NCBI RefSeq assembly: GCF_000025005.1 | Contig: NC_013525.1 | Coordinates: 372,001 to 436,000, forward strand | Reading direction: 5' to 3' | Origin: Thermobaculum terrenum ATCC BAA-798 | Lineage (GTDB): Bacteria; Chloroflexota; Chloroflexia; Thermobaculales; Thermobaculaceae | DNA length: 64,000 nucleotides | Shown here: one piece after another, positions 13,965-61,709 of the stretch | Numbering within the stretch: position 1 is the stretch's first letter | Layout: each line of letters starts with the position of its first letter | Notes under the pieces: model-generated | Database searches by the model: none | Seen by the model: only the letters and a program-made list of their open reading frames with translations | Told to the model about the DNA's origin: nothing | Position numbers and translations under genes: made by a program

Positions 13965-15698
13965 TTGGTTCTGTCCAGCAGTATCCGTAGACTAGTTATT
14001 GTAGTCACGACCTCACTTGCCTTGTTCTTCCTAACTATTTCCCAAAGCCCTGGCTATGCTTACGCTGCCTCTCGTAATAGTGATCTTGAACCTAGAGTGC
14101 TAACTACTGGCAGGATTCTAGTGAAATTCAGATCAGGTACAGATGCTTCTAAAGTTTTGCAGGCAGCTTCGATTCAAAGTGGGATTATTGTGGATCGGGT
14201 CAATCCGCTTGGGGTGAAGGTTGTAAGGCCGAGAACAGTTCTTGCTCAGTCTCTGGGAACCCTGGAGCGATTGGCCAATCATATAGAACAGAATCCTAGT
14301 GTGATATATGCTCAACCTGAAGTTCTGCTACAGCCGCAGGATGTAATCCCGAATGACCCTGATTATCCCAGGCAATGGGGCTTACAGAGGATCAGAGCTC
14401 CTAAGGCTTGGGAGATAAGCACAGGTAGCTCCACGGTCAAGATAGGCATAGTTGATTCAGGAATAGCTATGAATCATCCTGAACTAAAGGATAGGTATGC
14501 TGGGGGCTACGATTTTGTGCAACATGATACCTATCCGCAAGATACGGATGGTCATGGAACTCATGTGGCTGGTATAGCTGCAGCTACAGGTAATAATGGT
14601 ATAGGGATAGCCGGTGTTGGTTGGCGTACCAAGTTATTAGTAGCCAGGGTCTTGACTGCCGAAGGTGCTACGGATACTGACGTTGCCAAGGGCATAATAT
14701 GGGTAACTGATCATGGGGCTTCAGTGATCAACATAAGCCTAGGAACCTACTATGACTCCGATACCCTGCATCAGGCTATACAATATGCCCAGGAAAAGGG
14801 GGTATTAGTAGTTGCTGCAGCAGGCAACGAGTCGACTAATATACCTTTGTATCCAGCTGCCTATCCTGGAGTTATAGGGGTAGCAGCTACCAATCAAGAT
14901 GATAGATATGCGAGCTTCTCCAATTATGGCTCATACGTGGATATAAGCGCTCCTGGAGTCGACATATACTCCACTTACCCTGGAGGATATGCTTACATGA
15001 GCGGGACGTCTATGGCAGCTCCTTTTGTTACCGGAGCTGCTGCGGTAATCAAGGCAGAATTCCCTTGGTACTCTGCCAATCAAATATGGCAAAGGCTAAA
15101 AGCAGGGGCAGACGATTTAGGTCCCAAGGGGTTGGATACGCGCTATGGGTATGGACGATTGAATCTATACAGGTCCTTGGCTGTTCCTGGGACCTTGATT
15201 GGAAGAGTTAGAAATGCCAAGACCGGCAATGTTCTCCCTGGAGTCAGGGTGCAGCTATATGGAACTCCTAGATATACATACACAGATAGTCAAGGGAGAT
15301 TTGTATTTCGGAATATAAGATATGGAGCTGGGAAGCTGATATTCAGCAAGCAGGGCTATGCTCAAGGGATGAGGAACATTTTTATAGAACCTGCCGCTAC
15401 TGAATATACAGGTATCAGGCTAGCACCACTAGCCAGACTTTCCGGCTACGTTAGGTCTTCTAGTGGAACGCCTCTCTCCAATGCTGTTGTTAGTGTGACC
15501 TCTCAGGAGGGTAGTGACCTACAAGATACTACAGACTCTTACGGTAGGTATTTCATCAAAAATGTGCCTATAGGTATAGTGAGAGTAACCGCTAGTCTCA
15601 AGGACTACACCTCTGTGACTAAAAACGTATCCACTACAATGGGGACCACAACCAGTGTGAGCTTCACCCTCAAACCTTTACTAGCTCCAGGCAACTAG
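13965..15698 (+). CDS. secreted subtilisin-like serine protease with C-terminal beta domains
   Basis: A TTG at 13965, 6 bases after GGAGG, starts this 577-residue protein. It has a signal peptide (LVIVVTTSLALFFLTIS, cut near YAYAAS), an inhibitor-like propeptide to about residue 120, and an S8 catalytic domain with Asp164 (IVDSG), His197 (DGHGTHVAG) and Ser349 (SGTSMAAPF). Two carboxypeptidase-regulatory-like beta domains follow from about 407 (GTLIGRVRNAKTGNVLPGV and LSGYVRSSSGTPLSNAVV). It acts outside the cell; the beta domains may aid stability or surface attachment. It opens the secreted/surface gene block and is probably transcribed alone, since a long gap follows. Confidence 0.95.
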   Translation: MVLSSSIRRLVIVVTTSLALFFLTISQSPGYAYAASRNSDLEPRVLTTGRILVKFRSGTDASKVLQAASIQSGIIVDRVNPLGVKVVRPRTVLAQSLGTLERLANHIEQNPSVIYAQPEVLLQPQDVIPNDPDYPRQWGLQRIRAPKAWEISTGSSTVKIGIVDSGIAMNHPELKDRYAGGYDFVQHDTYPQDTDGHGTHVAGIAAATGNNGIGIAGVGWRTKLLVARVLTAEGATDTDVAKGIIWVTDHGASVINISLGTYYDSDTLHQAIQYAQEKGVLVVAAAGNESTNIPLYPAAYPGVIGVAATNQDDRYASFSNYGSYVDISAPGVDIYSTYPGGYAYMSGTSMAAPFVTGAAAVIKAEFPWYSANQIWQRLKAGADDLGPKGLDTRYGYGRLNLYRSLAVPGTLIGRVRNAKTGNVLPGVRVQLYGTPRYTYTDSQGRFVFRNIRYGAGKLIFSKQGYAQGMRNIFIEPAATEYTGIRLAPLARLSGYVRSSSGTPLSNAVVSVTSQEGSDLQDTTDSYGRYFIKNVPIGIVRVTASLKDYTSVTKNVSTTMGTTTSVSFTLKPLLAPGN

Positions 15699-15932: not shown

Positions 15933-15961
15933 TTGACGGATATTAATTGGGTTTATATAAT
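15933..15961 (+). promoter_or_regulatory. strong sigma-A promoter of the Pro/Ser-rich surface protein
   Basis: TTGACG (15933-15938) and a perfect TATAAT (15956-15961) are separated by exactly 17 bases. The predicted start of transcription is near 15968, giving a 5' leader of about 185 bases before the gene at 16153. Confidence 0.85.
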
Positions 15962-15966
15962 TGAAA

Positions 15967-16093
15967 CTGTAGAAACTTTTGCATTAATGCTAAAAGTGTA
16001 AAAGGCGCTAATTAGCGTAGAGGCGACGAAGTCCGCTTACCTATATGGGCACCATGGGAGCGGATGGAGCCACTGGTGCAACCGGCTACTGAG
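15967..16093 (+). ncRNA. structured leader RNA, class II c-di-GMP riboswitch-like
   Basis: The leader contains a stem GCACCA (16049-16054) / TGGTGC (16074-16079) set in the frame GGGCAC...GTGCAACCG. From memory, this is the conserved core of class II c-di-GMP aptamers. At the 5' end, CTGTAG followed by AAAC (15967-15975) can pair with CTACtG at 16086-16091 to form a P1-like helix (GTAG/CTAC plus one further pair). Extra hairpins are present: ACTTTT/AAAAGT at 15975-15997, CGCTAATTAGCG at 16006-16017, and GCGAC-GAA-GTCcGC at about 16023-16036. The P1 3' strand is also the 5' arm of the terminator, so folding of the aptamer would block termination: an ON switch. Against this class, P1 is imperfect and I could not find the usual GGUU partner for AACC. 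Confidence 0.55.
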
Positions 16094-16121
16094 AAGACCC
16101 TCAGTAGCCGGTTCGTTTTTT
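16080..16121 (+). terminator. intrinsic terminator in the leader (attenuator)
   Basis: A perfect 14-bp stem (AACCGGCTACTGAG / CTCAGTAGCCGGTT) with a 6-base loop is followed by CG and six Ts (16116-16121). It lies between the strong promoter and the coding region, so transcription of the surface protein requires read-through. This is the layout of a riboswitch attenuator. Confidence 0.92.
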
Positions 16122-16152: not shown

Positions 16153-17829
16153 ATGACACTGAAAATAAGACAACCGTTTTTAATAACTTGCCTAATTATT
16201 TCTGCACTAGTCTTATCTATGATCGCTCCCACACTCTTTGGTGGTACCACTAGTGCTCATGGCAAGAATCCACCTGGCAACAATGGTACGATCAAAGTCG
16301 ATGGTAGGGATTTTGATGATCATCCGAACAACGAGCCTCACCCGGGTTGTGTATTCCAGATAGACTTTTATGGGTTTGATAAAGGAGATTATTACGCTAC
16401 AGTTACCTTTGAGACGCAGGCGCCTACTGAACCTAAAGATCAGGTAATACTTCAAGATAAAGTGTTCATAGGTGAAGATGACGCTTCGGGAGGGGGATCG
16501 GAGTCTGGCCTGGATGCTTCGGTTAAGTATGATCTATCGCAGTATCTTTCACAGTATGAACCACATTCTAATCAGGGCTACCATATCAAGCTAACTATTC
16601 ATGCCCCCGGGTCTAAGGGCAACGATGTAAAGCACAAGGTTTTTTGGGTGAACTGTAAGCCGGAAAATCCACAGCCAACGCCTACCCCAACGGCAACCCC
16701 TGTTCCATCGCCTTCAGTAAGCCCTAGCCCAACTCCGTTACCAAGTGAATCGCCAACTCCGAGTCCATCAATGAGTCCAACTCCAGTGCCGACACCAAGC
16801 ATAGTCCCATCACCAAGTCCTTCGGAGTCTCCGCTCCCCAGCCCATCTGTGAGCCCTACACCACAGCCGTCTCATAGTCCTGTGCCTTCAGTTAGCCCGT
16901 CTCCGAGCCAGAGTCCGCTACCTAGCCCAAGCAATACTCCAATTCCATCTAACAGCCCATCACCGAGTGTTAGCCCAAGTCCATCACCTTCAACTACACC
17001 AGTACCAAGTCCATCGATATCGCCGATACCAAGCCCTTCACCTTCGGTGGCTCCGACGCCAAGCCCATCACCGACGGCTATACCCAGCCCGTCTCCGAGC
17101 GTGAGTCCTACACCTGTGCCATCTACTAGCCCGTCACCAAGTGTTTCTCCAGTGCCGACACCAAGCCCGTCTACATCTCCAACTCCTAGTCCCTCGGAGA
17201 GTCCGGCGCCTTCGCCTACTCCTGTACCTAGCCCCTCGTTCAGCCCAACACCATCACCTAGTGAGTCACCTGTGCCAACGCCTGTACCATCCGTGTCGCC
17301 TACTCCGTCGCCAAGTACGACTCCATTACCATCTCCGAGTAATAGCCCGAAACCAAGCCCATCACCCTCGGTAATGCCAACGCCGGTGCCAAGTCCATCG
17401 ATTAGCCCACTGCCTAGCCCGGCTCCTTCCGAATCGCCTATGCCAACACCTGTCCCATCACCGAGTCCTTCAGCGACTCCTGTACCGACTCCGCAACCGA
17501 GTCCGAGTCCATCTGAGTTACCTGCTCCATCGGTATCACCAACACCTATTCCATCTTCTGTGCCATCACCACTACCATCACCAAGCCCATCAGGTTCACC
17601 TACACCTATCCCGATGCCTGCTCCAAGCGTGAGTCCTTCGCCCAGTGCGAGTGGTGTACCTGTCCCAGAGGCATCACCAAGCCCGTCTCCAAGCCATATG
17701 CCTACTGTGCCCAGGACTGGTGATGGAGGGATGGCGAGTACTGGCTCTGGGTCTTCCCTGCCAGTAGCAGGCTACTACCTGGGTCTAATATTAGTAGCAA
17801 CCTATATGCTACTAAGGCGCAAGTGGTAG
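16153..17829 (+). CDS. Pro/Ser-rich surface protein with VPRTG sorting signal (putative adhesin)
   Basis: This 558-residue protein starts at ATG behind AAAGGAGGGG. It has a signal peptide (residues 1-35, ending TTSAHG), a compact N-terminal domain at about 40-170 (HPGCVFQIDFYGFDKGDYYA, KVFIGEDDASGGGSESGLDA), and about 340 residues of degenerate P-S-P-x/P-T-P repeats. The C-terminal signal has VPRTG at 519-523, a hydrophobic stretch (GYYLGLILVATYMLL) and RRKW. A sortase would cut in VPRTG and join it to the wall; no sortase is in the window. The stalk is rigid and rich in Ser/Thr for O-glycosylation, and a protein O-mannosyltransferase gene follows. Adhesion is inferred. Expression is probably gated by the leader terminator. 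Confidence 0.88.
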   Translation: MTLKIRQPFLITCLIISALVLSMIAPTLFGGTTSAHGKNPPGNNGTIKVDGRDFDDHPNNEPHPGCVFQIDFYGFDKGDYYATVTFETQAPTEPKDQVILQDKVFIGEDDASGGGSESGLDASVKYDLSQYLSQYEPHSNQGYHIKLTIHAPGSKGNDVKHKVFWVNCKPENPQPTPTPTATPVPSPSVSPSPTPLPSESPTPSPSMSPTPVPTPSIVPSPSPSESPLPSPSVSPTPQPSHSPVPSVSPSPSQSPLPSPSNTPIPSNSPSPSVSPSPSPSTTPVPSPSISPIPSPSPSVAPTPSPSPTAIPSPSPSVSPTPVPSTSPSPSVSPVPTPSPSTSPTPSPSESPAPSPTPVPSPSFSPTPSPSESPVPTPVPSVSPTPSPSTTPLPSPSNSPKPSPSPSVMPTPVPSPSISPLPSPAPSESPMPTPVPSPSPSATPVPTPQPSPSPSELPAPSVSPTPIPSSVPSPLPSPSPSGSPTPIPMPAPSVSPSPSASGVPVPEASPSPSPSHMPTVPRTGDGGMASTGSGSSLPVAGYYLGLILVATYMLLRRKW

Positions 17830-17845
17830 TAAGAGTCTTTGAAGA

Positions 17846-17871
17846 GGGGGGAGATCTTCTGATCTCCCCCC
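17846..17871 (+). terminator. intrinsic terminator after the surface protein gene
   Basis: An 11-bp perfect stem (GGGGGGAGATC / GATCTCCCCCC) with a TTCT loop is followed by TAATTTTCTTT. It closes the surface-protein transcript. Confidence 0.88.
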
Positions 17872-17970
17872 TAATTTTCTTTATCTATTCTTCTATCTTT
17901 ACTTGACGTAGGGATACTATGCCTGTATCTTGCTCTTGTTACCAGCTTGATTTGTGAAGGATCTTTGTTG

Positions 17971-19296
17971 ATGGCAGAGATAGCAGGCAAAGAACTTGTT
18001 GAGAAGAAGGAGTGGAACTCCCTGGCTATAAGAGCTATTCCTCTCTTGCTAATATTGGTTTCCTTTGCTTTTTACTTATACAGGCTTAGTGTGCCTCCTC
18101 AATACATCTACGATGAGGTTTACCATGCCTATACCGCTGCTCAGTATGCTTCTGGTAATACGGATGCCTACTTATGGTACAAGAGAGCTCCAAGAGAGGG
18201 GGTTGCCTACGAGTGGACTCATCCACCACTAGGGAAGCTTCTAATTGCTGATTCTATACTGATCTTTGGTGACAATTCGTTTGGTTGGCGTTTTGCTTCT
18301 GCTGTTTTTGGTGCTATTGGTATTGGTGTTGCTTACTGGCTAGGGTACTCCCTTACCGGCTACATGGTTGTTGGGCTGCTCACGTCTTTCTTGCTACTGT
18401 TTGATGGTATGTACTATGTGCAATCCCGTACTGGGATGGTAGATATATTCCTTGTAGTATTTCTGATGCTTGCCCTTTTGATGGCTTATAAGTACTTGAC
18501 TGCTACCAACGGTAGAACTAGGTACCTGTTCCTGACTGGAGTATTTATAGGTCTGGCAGTATCTACCAAGTGGAATGCTGTCTATGTATATGCGTTCCTG
18601 GGGCTATCGCTGGTAGTTTGTTCGGCATATACCCTGTACAAGAGTAGAGCCCCCGTAAGTAAATGGCTGCTTGAAGCAGGACTACTGTTTGCTTTTATGT
18701 TGCTAGTGCCTGCTGTGTTGTACTTGCTCTCCTATACCCAGTTCTTCCTTAGTGGGAATGGCATAAAGGATTTCTTTAAGCTCCAATATCAGATGTATTA
18801 CTACCACTCGCACCTTAAGGCTACACATAACTATCAATCCAAGTGGTGGGAATGGCCACTAACTCTCAGACCTGTTTGGTACTATGTCAAATACTATCCG
18901 GATGGTCGTATAGCTAACATATATACTAACGGTAATCCCGTAATCTATCTTGCTCTCATACCTGCTGTGCTATGGGCCGCTTCTGACTGGATTGATGAGA
19001 ACTGGAAGGCTCTGCTTATAGTAGTTCTTGGGTTCTTTGGAGCTTGGCTACCTTGGGCGCTTGTTCCAAGGATAGCTTTTGCTTATCACTTCCTGCCATC
19101 AGTACCCTTTGGATGTGTAGCTCTTGCTTACACTATTAGGCAATTCCTCTCAAGAGGGGGGACCTGGAGAACTGCGGCTATATGTTATTGTGTAGCTGTG
19201 GTGGCTATGTTTGTGTTCCTGTTTCCGATATATTCAGCTATCCCACTAACTAGAGCTCAATTCGATATGCGCATACTTATTCCTAGCTGGAGATGA
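17971..19296 (+). CDS. PMT family protein O-mannosyltransferase (GT39)
   Basis: I start at ATG 17971, behind GAAGGATC, giving 441 residues. This multi-spanning enzyme carries the catalytic Asp-Glu pair in YIYDEVYHAYTA in the first external loop and the family segment YEWTHPPLGKLLI, both diagnostic of dolichyl-phosphate-mannose-protein mannosyltransferases, plus MYYVQSRTGMVDIF. Such enzymes move mannose from a polyprenyl phosphate carrier to Ser/Thr of exported proteins at the outer face of the membrane. The gene directly follows the Ser/Thr/Pro-rich surface protein, its obvious candidate substrate. A GT-C-like gene begins 4 bases downstream, so the two form an operon. Confidence 0.93.
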   Translation: MAEIAGKELVEKKEWNSLAIRAIPLLLILVSFAFYLYRLSVPPQYIYDEVYHAYTAAQYASGNTDAYLWYKRAPREGVAYEWTHPPLGKLLIADSILIFGDNSFGWRFASAVFGAIGIGVAYWLGYSLTGYMVVGLLTSFLLLFDGMYYVQSRTGMVDIFLVVFLMLALLMAYKYLTATNGRTRYLFLTGVFIGLAVSTKWNAVYVYAFLGLSLVVCSAYTLYKSRAPVSKWLLEAGLLFAFMLLVPAVLYLLSYTQFFLSGNGIKDFFKLQYQMYYYHSHLKATHNYQSKWWEWPLTLRPVWYYVKYYPDGRIANIYTNGNPVIYLALIPAVLWAASDWIDENWKALLIVVLGFFGAWLPWALVPRIAFAYHFLPSVPFGCVALAYTIRQFLSRGGTWRTAAICYCVAVVAMFVFLFPIYSAIPLTRAQFDMRILIPSWR

Positions 19297-19300
19297 GATA

Positions 19301-21253
19301 TTGCTGGGAGTACTCCTGCTGATTTCCTGCTTGATCCTAGGAATACTAGTACTTTATCTGCTGGTTCCTGGCTTAACGTTTGAAGAACGTATATTTTATG
19401 GTTTTGATCTCGGTGTCATATTGATCTCTATAGCGTGCTTTGTATCAGCAATCTTCTTTGGCTTCAATCTGTTACAGGTTTGTCTGACATCTCTATGTTT
19501 GTTGATAGTCTCTTTTGTGTTGACTTTTTGGCTTAGATCCCAAGTCGCTGCAAGGATCAAAAATGAGCTGCAGGATTTTAGATCTAGGTTGAAGCTTAGA
19601 GAGACTGTTTGGTTTGCTGAGATGCTCCTGGTAATAGGGGTTTTCTTCTTTCACCTGTATTACAATTCCTGGAGACTATACCCGGATGGGTGGTATGCAG
19701 GTCACTCATTTATATGGGGTGATCTACCTATACACACAGGACTTATCGAGAGCTTCGTCGAGATACGTAAATTCCCGCCTCCAAACATATACTTCAGTGG
19801 CACCTTGCTATCTTATCCCTTCATGGCCGATTTCTTTAGCTCGATCCTTATGATCCTGGGCTGGTCCTTGGGGCCCGCATTTGTAATCCCGGGGTTTCTG
19901 CTGGGTATATGTACGGTTGCAGGTATATATTTGCTAGCTCTGCGGATTTCGAGATCCGTTTTTGCCAGCTTATTGACCGTGGTTCTGGTCTTACTGAGTG
20001 GTGGTATGGGGTTCATAGTCTTCTTGGTAGAGGCTAATAGGTCGGGAAACTTCATCCACACACTTCTCAATCTGCCTTCGTACTATACAGGTTTGCGTGA
20101 TTACGCCATGACCTATCCTAATATAGTTCTAGGTTTTTTCCTTCCCCAGAGGCCATTCCTGTTGGCACTTCCTCTCGGTATGTTGATGTTGAGCCTGCTT
20201 TACAGGTTCAGGCTCTCTAGAAGACCTTACGATATGTTGTTAGTAGGTTTGGCATCAGCCCTTCTCCCGCTCGTGCATCCTCACACGCTTGTAACGATTG
20301 GCATAGTGTCGGGTTACCTTGTTGTGGAGTACCTTGTGCTTTCATTCTTGTGTAACGATAAGCAAGGATGCTATAGGGCGTTGTTATCTGGAGTCCTATT
20401 CTCTCTTCCTGTCACGGTAGGGATGCTGCAAGTTCTGTGGCAACTTGGAAACCTTGGAGCTACCAGCAATGGCGGTCTAAGCGTACAAATAACCACTAGG
20501 GCTATAGCAACTGAAAACTATATATGGTACTGGCTCAAAAATGTAGGGCTTTTCCTGCCACTTGCTGGGTTGATTTTTGTGGTGCAGGGCGCTTTGCCAA
20601 ATAGGATAAGGAGTTTCTACGCTCCATTTGCCCTTATATGGTTTATAGCTACTTTGGTAGTAATGCAGCCTTTCGACTGTTGCAATCGCAAGTTGTTGGT
20701 GTATTGGTACTTGGTTTCTGCTGTGGTCATATCTTTGGTACTAGTAAAATTGATCCTTACAGGGGATATAATCTCCAGGTTTCTAGTTGCATTTTTGATA
20801 TTCTTGCTCGTCTTCACGGGCTCCCTGGATCTATTTAGGGCGTCTATTCCTTCTCAATCGAGATATCTTGAATTTAGTAATGAGGATATAGCCTTTGCTA
20901 ACCAAGTCAAGGAGAGGTTGCCTGCTGATGCCGTATACATCACCGCTACCCAGGTACATCATCCTATAACTGACCTTGCTGGGAGGCAAGTGGTACTTGG
21001 CCCACCTTATCTGGCAAATGACTGGGGGTTACCCTGGAGACCCAGGATGGAGGATCTCCAGTTGATATATACAGGATCATCTCGAGCCCAGGACTTGATC
21101 AGAAAATATGGAGCCAGGTACCTAGTCATAGGTCCCACAGAGAGACAACTATTCAGAGTAAACAAACAGTACTACCAGGAAAGATTCCCGGTAGTACTGC
21201 GCTATGGACAGTATACGGTATTTGATGTTAGTTCCGTTTACGGTAGCAGGTAG
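19301..21253 (+). CDS. large multi-pass membrane protein, GT-C glycosyltransferase-like
   Basis: TTG 19301 follows GGAGATGAG by a few bases, right after the mannosyltransferase stop. The 650-residue protein is almost wholly hydrophobic, with roughly a dozen membrane spans. It has an external loop carrying FIWGDLPIHTGLIESF, whose Asp is placed like the catalytic Asp of GT-C enzymes, and a soluble C-terminal domain of about 120 residues (LEFSNEDIAFANQVKERLP, KYGARYLVIG). I do not recognise a named family with certainty. Topology and operon position suggest it acts on lipid-linked sugars together with the mannosyltransferase, for example by extending or supplying the glycan. Confidence 0.75.
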   Translation: MLGVLLLISCLILGILVLYLLVPGLTFEERIFYGFDLGVILISIACFVSAIFFGFNLLQVCLTSLCLLIVSFVLTFWLRSQVAARIKNELQDFRSRLKLRETVWFAEMLLVIGVFFFHLYYNSWRLYPDGWYAGHSFIWGDLPIHTGLIESFVEIRKFPPPNIYFSGTLLSYPFMADFFSSILMILGWSLGPAFVIPGFLLGICTVAGIYLLALRISRSVFASLLTVVLVLLSGGMGFIVFLVEANRSGNFIHTLLNLPSYYTGLRDYAMTYPNIVLGFFLPQRPFLLALPLGMLMLSLLYRFRLSRRPYDMLLVGLASALLPLVHPHTLVTIGIVSGYLVVEYLVLSFLCNDKQGCYRALLSGVLFSLPVTVGMLQVLWQLGNLGATSNGGLSVQITTRAIATENYIWYWLKNVGLFLPLAGLIFVVQGALPNRIRSFYAPFALIWFIATLVVMQPFDCCNRKLLVYWYLVSAVVISLVLVKLILTGDIISRFLVAFLIFLLVFTGSLDLFRASIPSQSRYLEFSNEDIAFANQVKERLPADAVYITATQVHHPITDLAGRQVVLGPPYLANDWGLPWRPRMEDLQLIYTGSSRAQDLIRKYGARYLVIGPTERQLFRVNKQYYQERFPVVLRYGQYTVFDVSSVYGSR

Positions 21254-22507
21254 CTACCGTACGTATCTATAGGCCATCAATTTATAGTCTGGATAAGCCC
21301 CAGAGTCATCTCGTACTGATGCAAGCACGCGATAGTTGTTGTTATCGGCTCTTGGTTCAAAAACTATGCTCCATCTAATAGTTAGCTGATTGCCGGATAG
21401 ACTGACTGTAGTATACCTGGCGTTGATTTGCACGATATTTCCCCTTAGCACTACATCTTTGCCAGGCACTGCACTATATAACACCCCGTTAGAAAGGTCC
21501 TTCATGTAGATCTTGTTCTTGTCCTGGTTGTACCAGATCTTGACGGACCTGTTGTAATAGGAGCTCTGGAACTTGATATAAGCCTTGTTGATATTCTTGG
21601 CTCCATTAGAGTCGTAGTAGGTCGCCGTGAATGAGTAGCTTCTTCCTACGTAACTCGTACCTGTCCCAGGTGTTAGAGAAGTCACGCGAGGCAGGTAGTT
21701 ACTAGATTGCGCAGCGTATAGATACCTAGGGGTGGAAGAAGCCCAGATGCTGGGTTTGACCCCTATGTAAGTGGAGCCATAAGGGACTCTGCCGCTAAGT
21801 ACGTCTGAGAGGAAGACTTGTCCAGCCTCCTCTCGACTGTAACCATAGTCCGAGGCTCGATCTATGTTGGGCATTCTATATCCTAGCTGTTCATAGAAAC
21901 CAGTTACCTGGTGAGTCCACTCGTGAAGAAATATCTGCTCTGGGTAGCGACCAAGCCAGTCTCCGTGCTGTTGAGGGATATTTACGGTTGTGTAACCTGC
22001 TCCATTCGCCCAAGGACCTGGCCTGACAGTCCATCCCCAACCTAGGCTAGGTACTCGCTTGCCGCTATCAGTATCCAACCTCCATATGACGAAGATGCTG
22101 TCGTACCTACCTTGAGGAGCGTACTTGTTGATATCTGCCTTTATGTCCAGGGGCGAAACCCAGAAACCATTCGCACCCAGGGAAGTAACCGATGATATGG
22201 GGTGATCTGGATAGACTATAGTCTGGCTAAGGTATGTGTTGCCTCTGGACCAATTGTAAACCGTAGATGGCACTCTCCTTATGACGTACAGTGCTTTCTG
22301 CAAGTCCGAAGAGGACATAGAGGTCCTCACCCTCTGCGTCTGCCCATTCCAAGTGAAGGTAACATCTGTACTACGATATACCAAGAAAAGTGCCCTCCAA
22401 GTAGTGACAGCTGCCGAGGCTCGATTGATGCTAATTAGCGGAGACAATGTTGTTACCATAAGGCACAAAATCAGAAATACTAGGAGCCTAGGTTTCAATT
22501 TTGTCAT
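21254..22507 (-). CDS. secreted HExxH zinc metallopeptidase under c-di-GMP control
   Basis: This 417-residue exported protein has a signal peptide (LLVFLILCLMVTTLSPLIS, cut near ASA-AV), a novel-looking catalytic region with the zinc motif HEWTH at residues 195-199 (QIFLHEWTHQVTGFYEQLG) and a possible third ligand Glu in SREEAGQ (226/227). An Ig-like C-terminal part begins near 285 (TPGTGTSYVGRSYSFTATY). The family is not one I can name. The gene converges on the GT-C-like gene with no gap and is preceded by a class I c-di-GMP riboswitch. By analogy with PPEP-1/Zmp1 it may cut the nearby Pro-rich adhesin; that substrate is inference. Confidence 0.85.
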   Translation of the reverse strand: MTKLKPRLLVFLILCLMVTTLSPLISINRASAAVTTWRALFLVYRSTDVTFTWNGQTQRVRTSMSSSDLQKALYVIRRVPSTVYNWSRGNTYLSQTIVYPDHPISSVTSLGANGFWVSPLDIKADINKYAPQGRYDSIFVIWRLDTDSGKRVPSLGWGWTVRPGPWANGAGYTTVNIPQQHGDWLGRYPEQIFLHEWTHQVTGFYEQLGYRMPNIDRASDYGYSREEAGQVFLSDVLSGRVPYGSTYIGVKPSIWASSTPRYLYAAQSSNYLPRVTSLTPGTGTSYVGRSYSFTATYYDSNGAKNINKAYIKFQSSYYNRSVKIWYNQDKNKIYMKDLSNGVLYSAVPGKDVVLRGNIVQINARYTTVSLSGNQLTIRWSIVFEPRADNNNYRVLASVRDDSGAYPDYKLMAYRYVR

Positions 22508-22518
22508 ATCTTGTATGT

Positions 22519-22558
22519 CCTCCCATAGGGTGATTAGGGAGGCACTGGTCAGCCTCCC
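22519..22558 (-). promoter_or_regulatory. riboswitch expression platform (sequestor/anti-sequestor of the ribosome site)
   Basis: Reading the minus strand, GCCTCCC (plus 22537-22543) can pair either with GGGAGGC just upstream (plus 22552-22558) or with GGGAGG at the ribosome site (plus 22519-22524). The upstream partner overlaps CTGGG, the 3' strand of aptamer helix P1. Ligand binding would stabilise P1, free GCCTCCC to cover the ribosome site and stop translation. Without ligand the site is open. This predicts a translational OFF switch. The ribosome site is 11 bases from the ATG. Confidence 0.7.
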
Positions 22559-22633
22559 AGGCAGCCCGGCTGACTCTTAGAGTCCCGTGGCTTTGCGTCC
22601 CCATCTCACGACGGGTTTGCCCTTTTCTGGGTC
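22556..22633 (-). ncRNA. class I cyclic di-GMP riboswitch (GEMM-I) aptamer
   Basis: On the minus strand the RNA contains the three conserved GEMM-I blocks in order: GGGCAAACC, GGGGACGCAAAGCC and CCGGGCUGCC. Between the first two lies a hairpin capped by the GNRA tetraloop GUGA, as required for docking onto the second arm. The second arm ends in the hairpin GACUC-UAA-GAGUC. Helix P1 is CCCAG (22627-22631) with CUGGG (22556-22560). The match is essentially complete. It lies in the leader of the secreted metallopeptidase, 48 bases ahead of its start. Confidence 0.94.
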
Positions 22634-61525: not shown

Positions 61526-61577
61526 CAATCCGCTACCTATCAGGAGTATCGACTTATGCGATACACCTAGCTATAGC

Positions 61578-61693
61578 GGCCTTCTCCCATCCGGACTCTT
61601 ACCGTCGGCCCTGGAATCTCACCAGGTCCACCCCTGTTGCAGGGGGTCGCGGGCTCTACCGCCGGTCGGGAATTGCACCCTGCCCCGAAGGCC
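61578..61693 (-). ncRNA. FMN riboswitch (RFN element)
   Basis: On the minus strand the RNA has the RFN blocks in order: GGCCTTCGGGGCAGGGTG, CAATTCCCGACCGGCGG, TAGAGCCCGCGA, GACCTGGTGAGATTCCAG, GGCCGACGGTAAGAGTCCGG and ATGGGAGAAGGCC. P1 is GGCCTTC (61687-61693) with GAAGGCC (61578-61584). The match is essentially complete. It controls ribX-ribY. Confidence 0.97.
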
Positions 61694-61709
61694 TTATTTA
61701 TCCACTAAG

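Follow-up and report, generated by a model that had tools for sequence, protein, structure and literature searches.

The leader of an exported HExxH protein gene in Thermobaculum terrenum YNP1 raises the question of which way a c-di-GMP riboswitch would turn this gene, and what such control would serve. The region analysed (the window) is the 64,000-nucleotide stretch 372001–436000 of chromosome 1, and the assembly searched contains 3,101,581 bases in two contigs (2,026,947 and 1,074,634). The earlier note on this DNA had read the leader as a class I c-di-GMP riboswitch with a translational OFF platform. The following elements were located (window coordinates):

22556–22630, minus strand: c-di-GMP-I-GGC aptamer (RF03167; RF01051 also above its cut-off), from cmscan
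22627–22631, minus strand: P1 5' strand CCCAG, from the sequence
22556–22560, minus strand: P1 3' strand CUGGG, common to P1 and the alternative hairpin, from the sequence
22552–22558, minus strand: GGGAGGC, anti-anti-ribosome-site strand overlapping P1, from the sequence and in silico change
22537–22543, minus strand: GCCUCCC, anti-ribosome-site strand, from the sequence and in silico change
22519–22524, minus strand: ribosome binding site GGGAGG, 11 nt before the ATG, from the sequence
21254–22507, minus strand: exported HExxH protein, 417 aa, from the ORF

The identity of the aptamer was established with cmscan. The best match was to RF03167 (c-di-GMP-I-GGC) with 75.1 bits (E 5.4e-16, cut-off 59), spanning model positions 1–80 and thus the full model. 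The aptamer blocks GGGCAAACC and GGGGACGCAAAGCC and the GUGA tetraloop were all found on the minus strand. The GEMM-I model (RF01051), proposed earlier as a check, gave a weaker match of 68.6 bits against a cut-off of 35, so that the missing GEMM-I hit which would have spoken against the idea did not occur. The assignment to class I therefore stands, with the refinement that the GGC subfamily fits better than classical GEMM-I. From the 3' end of the aptamer, 48 nt lead to the next ATG (22507, minus strand), where the reading frame of the HExxH protein starts; no library names this protein, which the earlier note had called an unnamed HExxH protease. The 115-nt leader folded more stably than its dinucleotide shuffles (z = −2.7).

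The platform was then considered. As previously described, the sequence offers GCCUCCC two partners: GGGAGGC, whose GGG also belongs to P1, and the ribosome site GGGAGG. T. terrenum grows optimally at 67 °C and its cells are non-motile (PMC3035366); on account of this growth temperature, RNA folds were computed at both 37 and 65 °C. The free leader was compared with the leader in which P1 was enforced, using enforced-pair ensembles in ViennaRNA. Mean exposure of the ribosome site in these ensembles fell from 0.44 to 0.00 at 37 °C and from 0.50 to 0.01 at 65 °C. P1 and an exposed ribosome site were thus mutually exclusive by computation, as had been claimed, with one correction: four base pairs (AGGC/GCCU) are still possible when P1 is formed, and the exclusivity holds because the computed exposure in the P1 state is 0.00–0.01. 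The free-energy cost of P1 was 3.3 kcal/mol at 37 °C and 2.3 kcal/mol at 65 °C. Typical class I binding energies are large relative to a cost of 2–3 kcal/mol, so the ligand could tip the leader.

As a control, the 31-nt linker alone was shuffled, with 500 shuffles per run. An effect as large was reached by 4 and 6 of 500 shuffled linkers at 37 °C and by 1 and 0 of 500 at 65 °C, and a reversed effect of at least 0.3 by one in 2,000. The mutation of 22537–22543 suggested in the earlier note was run in silico and abolished repression, the ribosome site being exposed even with P1 (0.00 to 0.85). Alteration of AGGC (22555–22552) locked the leader OFF, with an exposure of 0.00 in both states. The 7-nt complement to the P1 3' strand is expected by chance at 358/20000. 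The second GGC leader of the genome has another linker with an 8-nt complement of its P1 3' strand (chance 65/20000).

A ligand-OFF translational switch in front of the HExxH protein is well supported in silico. Bound c-di-GMP would hold P1 (CCCAG/CUGGG) and leave GCCUCCC free for the ribosome site; without ligand, GGGAGGC, in which the P1 3' strand runs on beyond the helix, would capture GCCUCCC and the ribosome site would be exposed. High c-di-GMP would consequently repress translation of the secreted zinc-protease-like protein. Six GGDEF matches were found in the genome, and the encoded domains could supply the messenger. The distance of 11 nt from the ribosome site to the ATG is long and was counted against this explanation. 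No close homologue of the class I leader was found, which was likewise counted against it. Folding of the class I leaders of four relatives (G385, G341, G295 and G365) showed little or no P1-dependent change, while that of G309 leaned OFF and that of G359 leaned OFF at 65 °C. The second GGC leader of T. terrenum leaned OFF in one choice of boundaries and not clearly in another. A common class I sign across relatives, sought in this way, was not established by folding.

The product of the controlled gene carries a signal peptide, an HEWTH zincin domain at about residues 34–263 and an Ig-like C-terminal domain. Sequence searches of Pfam, NCBIfam and PDB with this protein gave nothing useful, and neither a single-sequence search of genome contigs nor a plasmid search returned a relative. 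An alignment query retrieved 39 relatives of the HExxH core from Verrucomicrobia, Chloroflexi, Riflebacteria, Bacillota and others; the alignment of these relatives had no match in Pfam or PDB. HEWxH does not vary among the 36 aligned sequences; an Asp conserved some 36 residues further on is a candidate further ligand. No riboswitch was found near the relatives at the loci L047–L050. Since antibody-like matches to the Ig-like domain dominated a fold search with the full-length protein, the catalytic domain was modelled alone. The model (pLDDT 93.7) places HEWxH within helix 158–174, the active-site helix of a zincin-like fold. Its best solved Foldseek matches were metzincins, with a probability of 0.99, and a TM of about 0.45 and an E of about 4e-3 mark these as distant. 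Membership in the metzincins was rejected, as the HExxHxxGxxH/D motif is absent, HEWTHQVTGFYE lacking both the G and the H/D where the motif calls for them. The protein appears to belong to a zincin-like HEWxH family without a name and is a predicted protease. The Ig-like domain recurs elsewhere in the genome, in a large exported protein (1144 aa, L046:2321–5755, about 574.3–577.8 kb of chromosome 1) which has four stretches similar to it and, by eye, a C39-like peptidase region.

What gives the class I switch its meaning is an opposing switch 6.5 kb away that is absent from the earlier note. The two switches face each other, and the plus strand of the window contains:

15933–15961, plus strand: sigma-70-type promoter TTGACG-17-TATAAT before the class II switch, 11/12 matches (1.1 promoter-like sites expected in shuffles)
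16010–16096, plus strand: c-di-GMP-II riboswitch aptamer (RF01786), 61.4 bits, E 3e-11, cut-off 53.5
16080–16121, plus strand: intrinsic terminator, 14-bp stem followed by CGTTTTTTAG, overlapping the aptamer 3' strand, from the sequence
16153–17829, plus strand: Pro/Ser-rich surface protein, 558 aa, from the sequence
17947–19296, plus strand: protein O-mannosyltransferase (PMT), PF02366 E 3.9e-21 and PF16192 E 1.8e-21
19301–21253, plus strand: polytopic membrane protein, no family match

The class II aptamer is the sole match of its class in the T. terrenum genome, and its own 3' strand forms the 5' arm of the terminator. An aptamer above the cut-off with an overlapping terminator is what terminator-type c-di-GMP-II switches such as that of C. 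difficile pilA1 display, and a textbook antitermination ON platform is predicted: following the standard logic, the ligand would hold the aptamer, termination would not occur and the surface protein would be ON. In contrast to the pilA1 type, the T. terrenum switch belongs to a non-motile thermophile and has a Pro/Ser stalk protein under its control. In the class II leaders of G385, G341 (two) and G295 (C103), an inverted repeat that overlaps the aptamer 3' strand and has a U-run behind it was likewise recognized by eye.

The 558-aa surface protein is built of a signal peptide, an N-terminal domain, a long Pro/Ser/Thr stalk with a single PP motif, a C-terminal VPRTG-type anchor, a TM helix and a basic tail. 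It had weak NCBIfam sorting/MSCRAMM matches below the cut-off, and a sortase gene is present elsewhere in the genome. Riboswitches near homologues of the surface-protein domain were looked for and not found. Directly after the gene (17835–17890, plus strand), a strong inverted repeat GGGGGGAGATC/GATCTCCCCCC is followed by a T-rich tail. This terminator-like hairpin probably ends the transcript before the PMT gene and suggests that PMT is a separate unit, which was counted against the explanation given below. The membrane protein that follows may be glycosyltransferase-like. Just upstream of the class II switch, at 13965–15698 on the plus strand, lies a gene for an exported subtilisin-like S8 protease that scores below the NCBIfam mycosin cut-off; it is a second secreted protease adjoining the surface-protein locus.

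The explanation that we consider probable is a two-riboswitch module, in which a class I GGC OFF switch on the protease-like protein is combined with a class II ON switch on the surface protein. The class I switch would form one half of it, and one shared signal would have opposite outputs. At high c-di-GMP, the surface structure would be built and an enzyme that may trim or release the surface protein would be silenced; at low c-di-GMP, the surface protein would be off and the protease-like enzyme on. Most secure are the two aptamers, the sequences of the two platforms and a convergent layout that is not random. Ligand binding, both signs and protease activity we infer, and action of the HExxH protein on the neighbouring surface protein is the least certain step.

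A precedent for this arrangement exists in C. difficile, where CD2831 (class II ON) and CD2830 (ZmpI/PPEP-1, class I OFF) are adjacent (PMC4591827, PMC6366702, PMC6200980) and the protease CD2830 releases the surface protein CD2831 (PMC4591827, PMC6366702). Class I switches of this species are mostly OFF and class II switches ON (PMC6200980). T. terrenum likewise has class I and class II switches as neighbours, a class II switch before a sortase-type surface protein and a class I switch before a secreted HExxH protein, the ON and OFF signs being computed. The differences are also clear: T. terrenum belongs to another phylum, its class I aptamer is of the GGC type, its protease-like enzyme comes from an unrelated family, and the genes for PMT and the membrane protein lie between the pair. 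Its OFF platform is predicted to be translational, whereas c-di-GMP lowers the zmpI transcript in C. difficile. Cleavage is known for CD2830 and CD2831; in T. terrenum, cleavage of the neighbouring surface protein is a conjecture. Within the openly accessible literature searched, opposed c-di-GMP switches on adhesin and protease are known experimentally from C. difficile only, and no report of the facing class I/II arrangement in Chloroflexota was found.

Among 400 sampled Chloroflexota genomes, GGC aptamers were present in 90 and class II aptamers in 102. A hydrophobic N-terminal stretch was encoded downstream of 18 of the 24 scored GGC leaders, suggesting that GGC-controlled genes mostly encode exported proteins. 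The T. terrenum leader conforms to most scored copies in this respect and to the RF03167 family in its score; it differs from other members by its explicit exchange between P1, anti-site and ribosome site and by the facing class II switch. For the order containing G341, the lists of class II and GGC aptamers are complete. Convergent class II and GGC switches 10–15 kb apart were found in G341, G385, G412 and G413, the last two pairs being confirmed by cmscan. With the window included, 5 of the 16 genomes that carry GGC aptamers have a class II switch converging on a GGC switch at a distance of no more than 16 kb, and these 5 represent three genera. By chance, 0.074 sites are expected; at least 3 genomes were obtained in 9 of 200,000 simulations and 5 in none. 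As the three g19 genomes are related, the fair count is one of lineages, not genomes, and since G365 has both switches far apart the pairing is not universal.

The cargo of these relatives is different from that of T. terrenum. In both G341 and G385, the class II switch is followed by an operon for exopolysaccharide, with the sugar transferase Bac_transf first, Wzy_C and glycosyltransferases, and the GGC switch by a pectate-lyase-like exported protein (PF12708). Beside such an operon, the latter could serve polymer modification rather than destruction. It is tentatively proposed, at somewhat less than even confidence, that facing class II (ON) and class I-GGC (OFF) switches form a recurrent 'build versus dismantle' cassette of Chloroflexota, independent of C. 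difficile and with interchangeable cargo. That cargo might, with the same reservation, be either a stalk protein with an unrelated zincin protease or an exopolysaccharide operon with a pectate-lyase-like enzyme.

The sign and the ligand of the class I switch could each be read differently. Natural class I switches of either sign exist, and some of the relatives' leaders fold without OFF preference, as would suit an ON switch whose ligand exposes the ribosome site. Such a sign is nevertheless improbable in T. terrenum, where forced P1 cut exposure from 0.44 to 0.00, the reversal was seen in a single linker shuffle and repression was lost in silico once the anti-site strand was changed. A ligand other than c-di-GMP, owing to altered specificity of the GGC-type variant, is distinctly improbable as well. 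Rfam keeps the GGC type apart from classical GEMM-I, and some GEMM-I variants are aptamers for c-AMP-GMP (PMC7266159), but the score with the classical c-di-GMP-I model is also well above the cut-off, the opposing switch is of the c-di-GMP class II type and the genome encodes GGDEF domains.

The partnership itself may be questioned from two sides. Descent of the HExxH protein from a common origin with PPEP-1, an M34 Pro-Pro endopeptidase, would agree with the same regulatory position, the HExxH motif, secretion and a Pro-rich neighbour; this was already disfavoured and is extremely doubtful, given that neither the protein (Pfam, NCBIfam, PDB) nor the alignment of its relatives (Pfam, PDB) has a sequence match, that the best 50 Foldseek matches include metzincins and no PPEP, and that the stalk offers one PP site only. 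Membership in M34 was rejected on the lack of sequence and fold matches. It is also conceivable that the c-di-GMP OFF switch controls a secreted enzyme which is functionally unrelated to the surface protein, and that the class II switch lies close by through coincidence or a loose clustering of c-di-GMP genes. Chloroflexota GGC switches precede many unrelated exported proteins, the protease core family occurs elsewhere (L047–L050) with no riboswitch nearby, and G365 carries its switches far apart; this reading is still rather unlikely, because convergent pairing in three genera is far above chance and the class II switch is the genome's only one.

If the signs of the two-riboswitch module hold, one messenger acts, by way of two unrelated RNA receptors and no protein regulator, in opposite directions on the building and the dismantling of the surface, and such wiring has evolved at least twice with different enzymes. 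Reciprocal riboswitch pairs would then be a general design and not a curiosity of C. difficile, unnamed secreted enzymes would gain testable functions, and there would be a hint at a role of c-di-GMP in a non-motile bacterium.

Further riboswitches were recorded on the way. Tandem class II aptamers precede exopolysaccharide operons in three g19 genomes (L121, L126, L127), and those of G341 have a terminator-like sequence after each aptamer. A class II aptamer in a further genus of the same family (L125, G295:C493, 2124–2209) precedes what by eye is an apparent Flp/Tad pilus operon. The second GGC riboswitch of T. terrenum, on chromosome 2 (G000, 961110–961184, minus strand), precedes an exported protein of 1201 aa that matches DUF1565 (L045:12429–16034) and adjoins a DUF5060/fn3/collagen-binding protein. 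An FMN riboswitch of 117 bits is located at 61575–61696 of the window on the minus strand, and a second one on chromosome 2 (L045:5209–5330).
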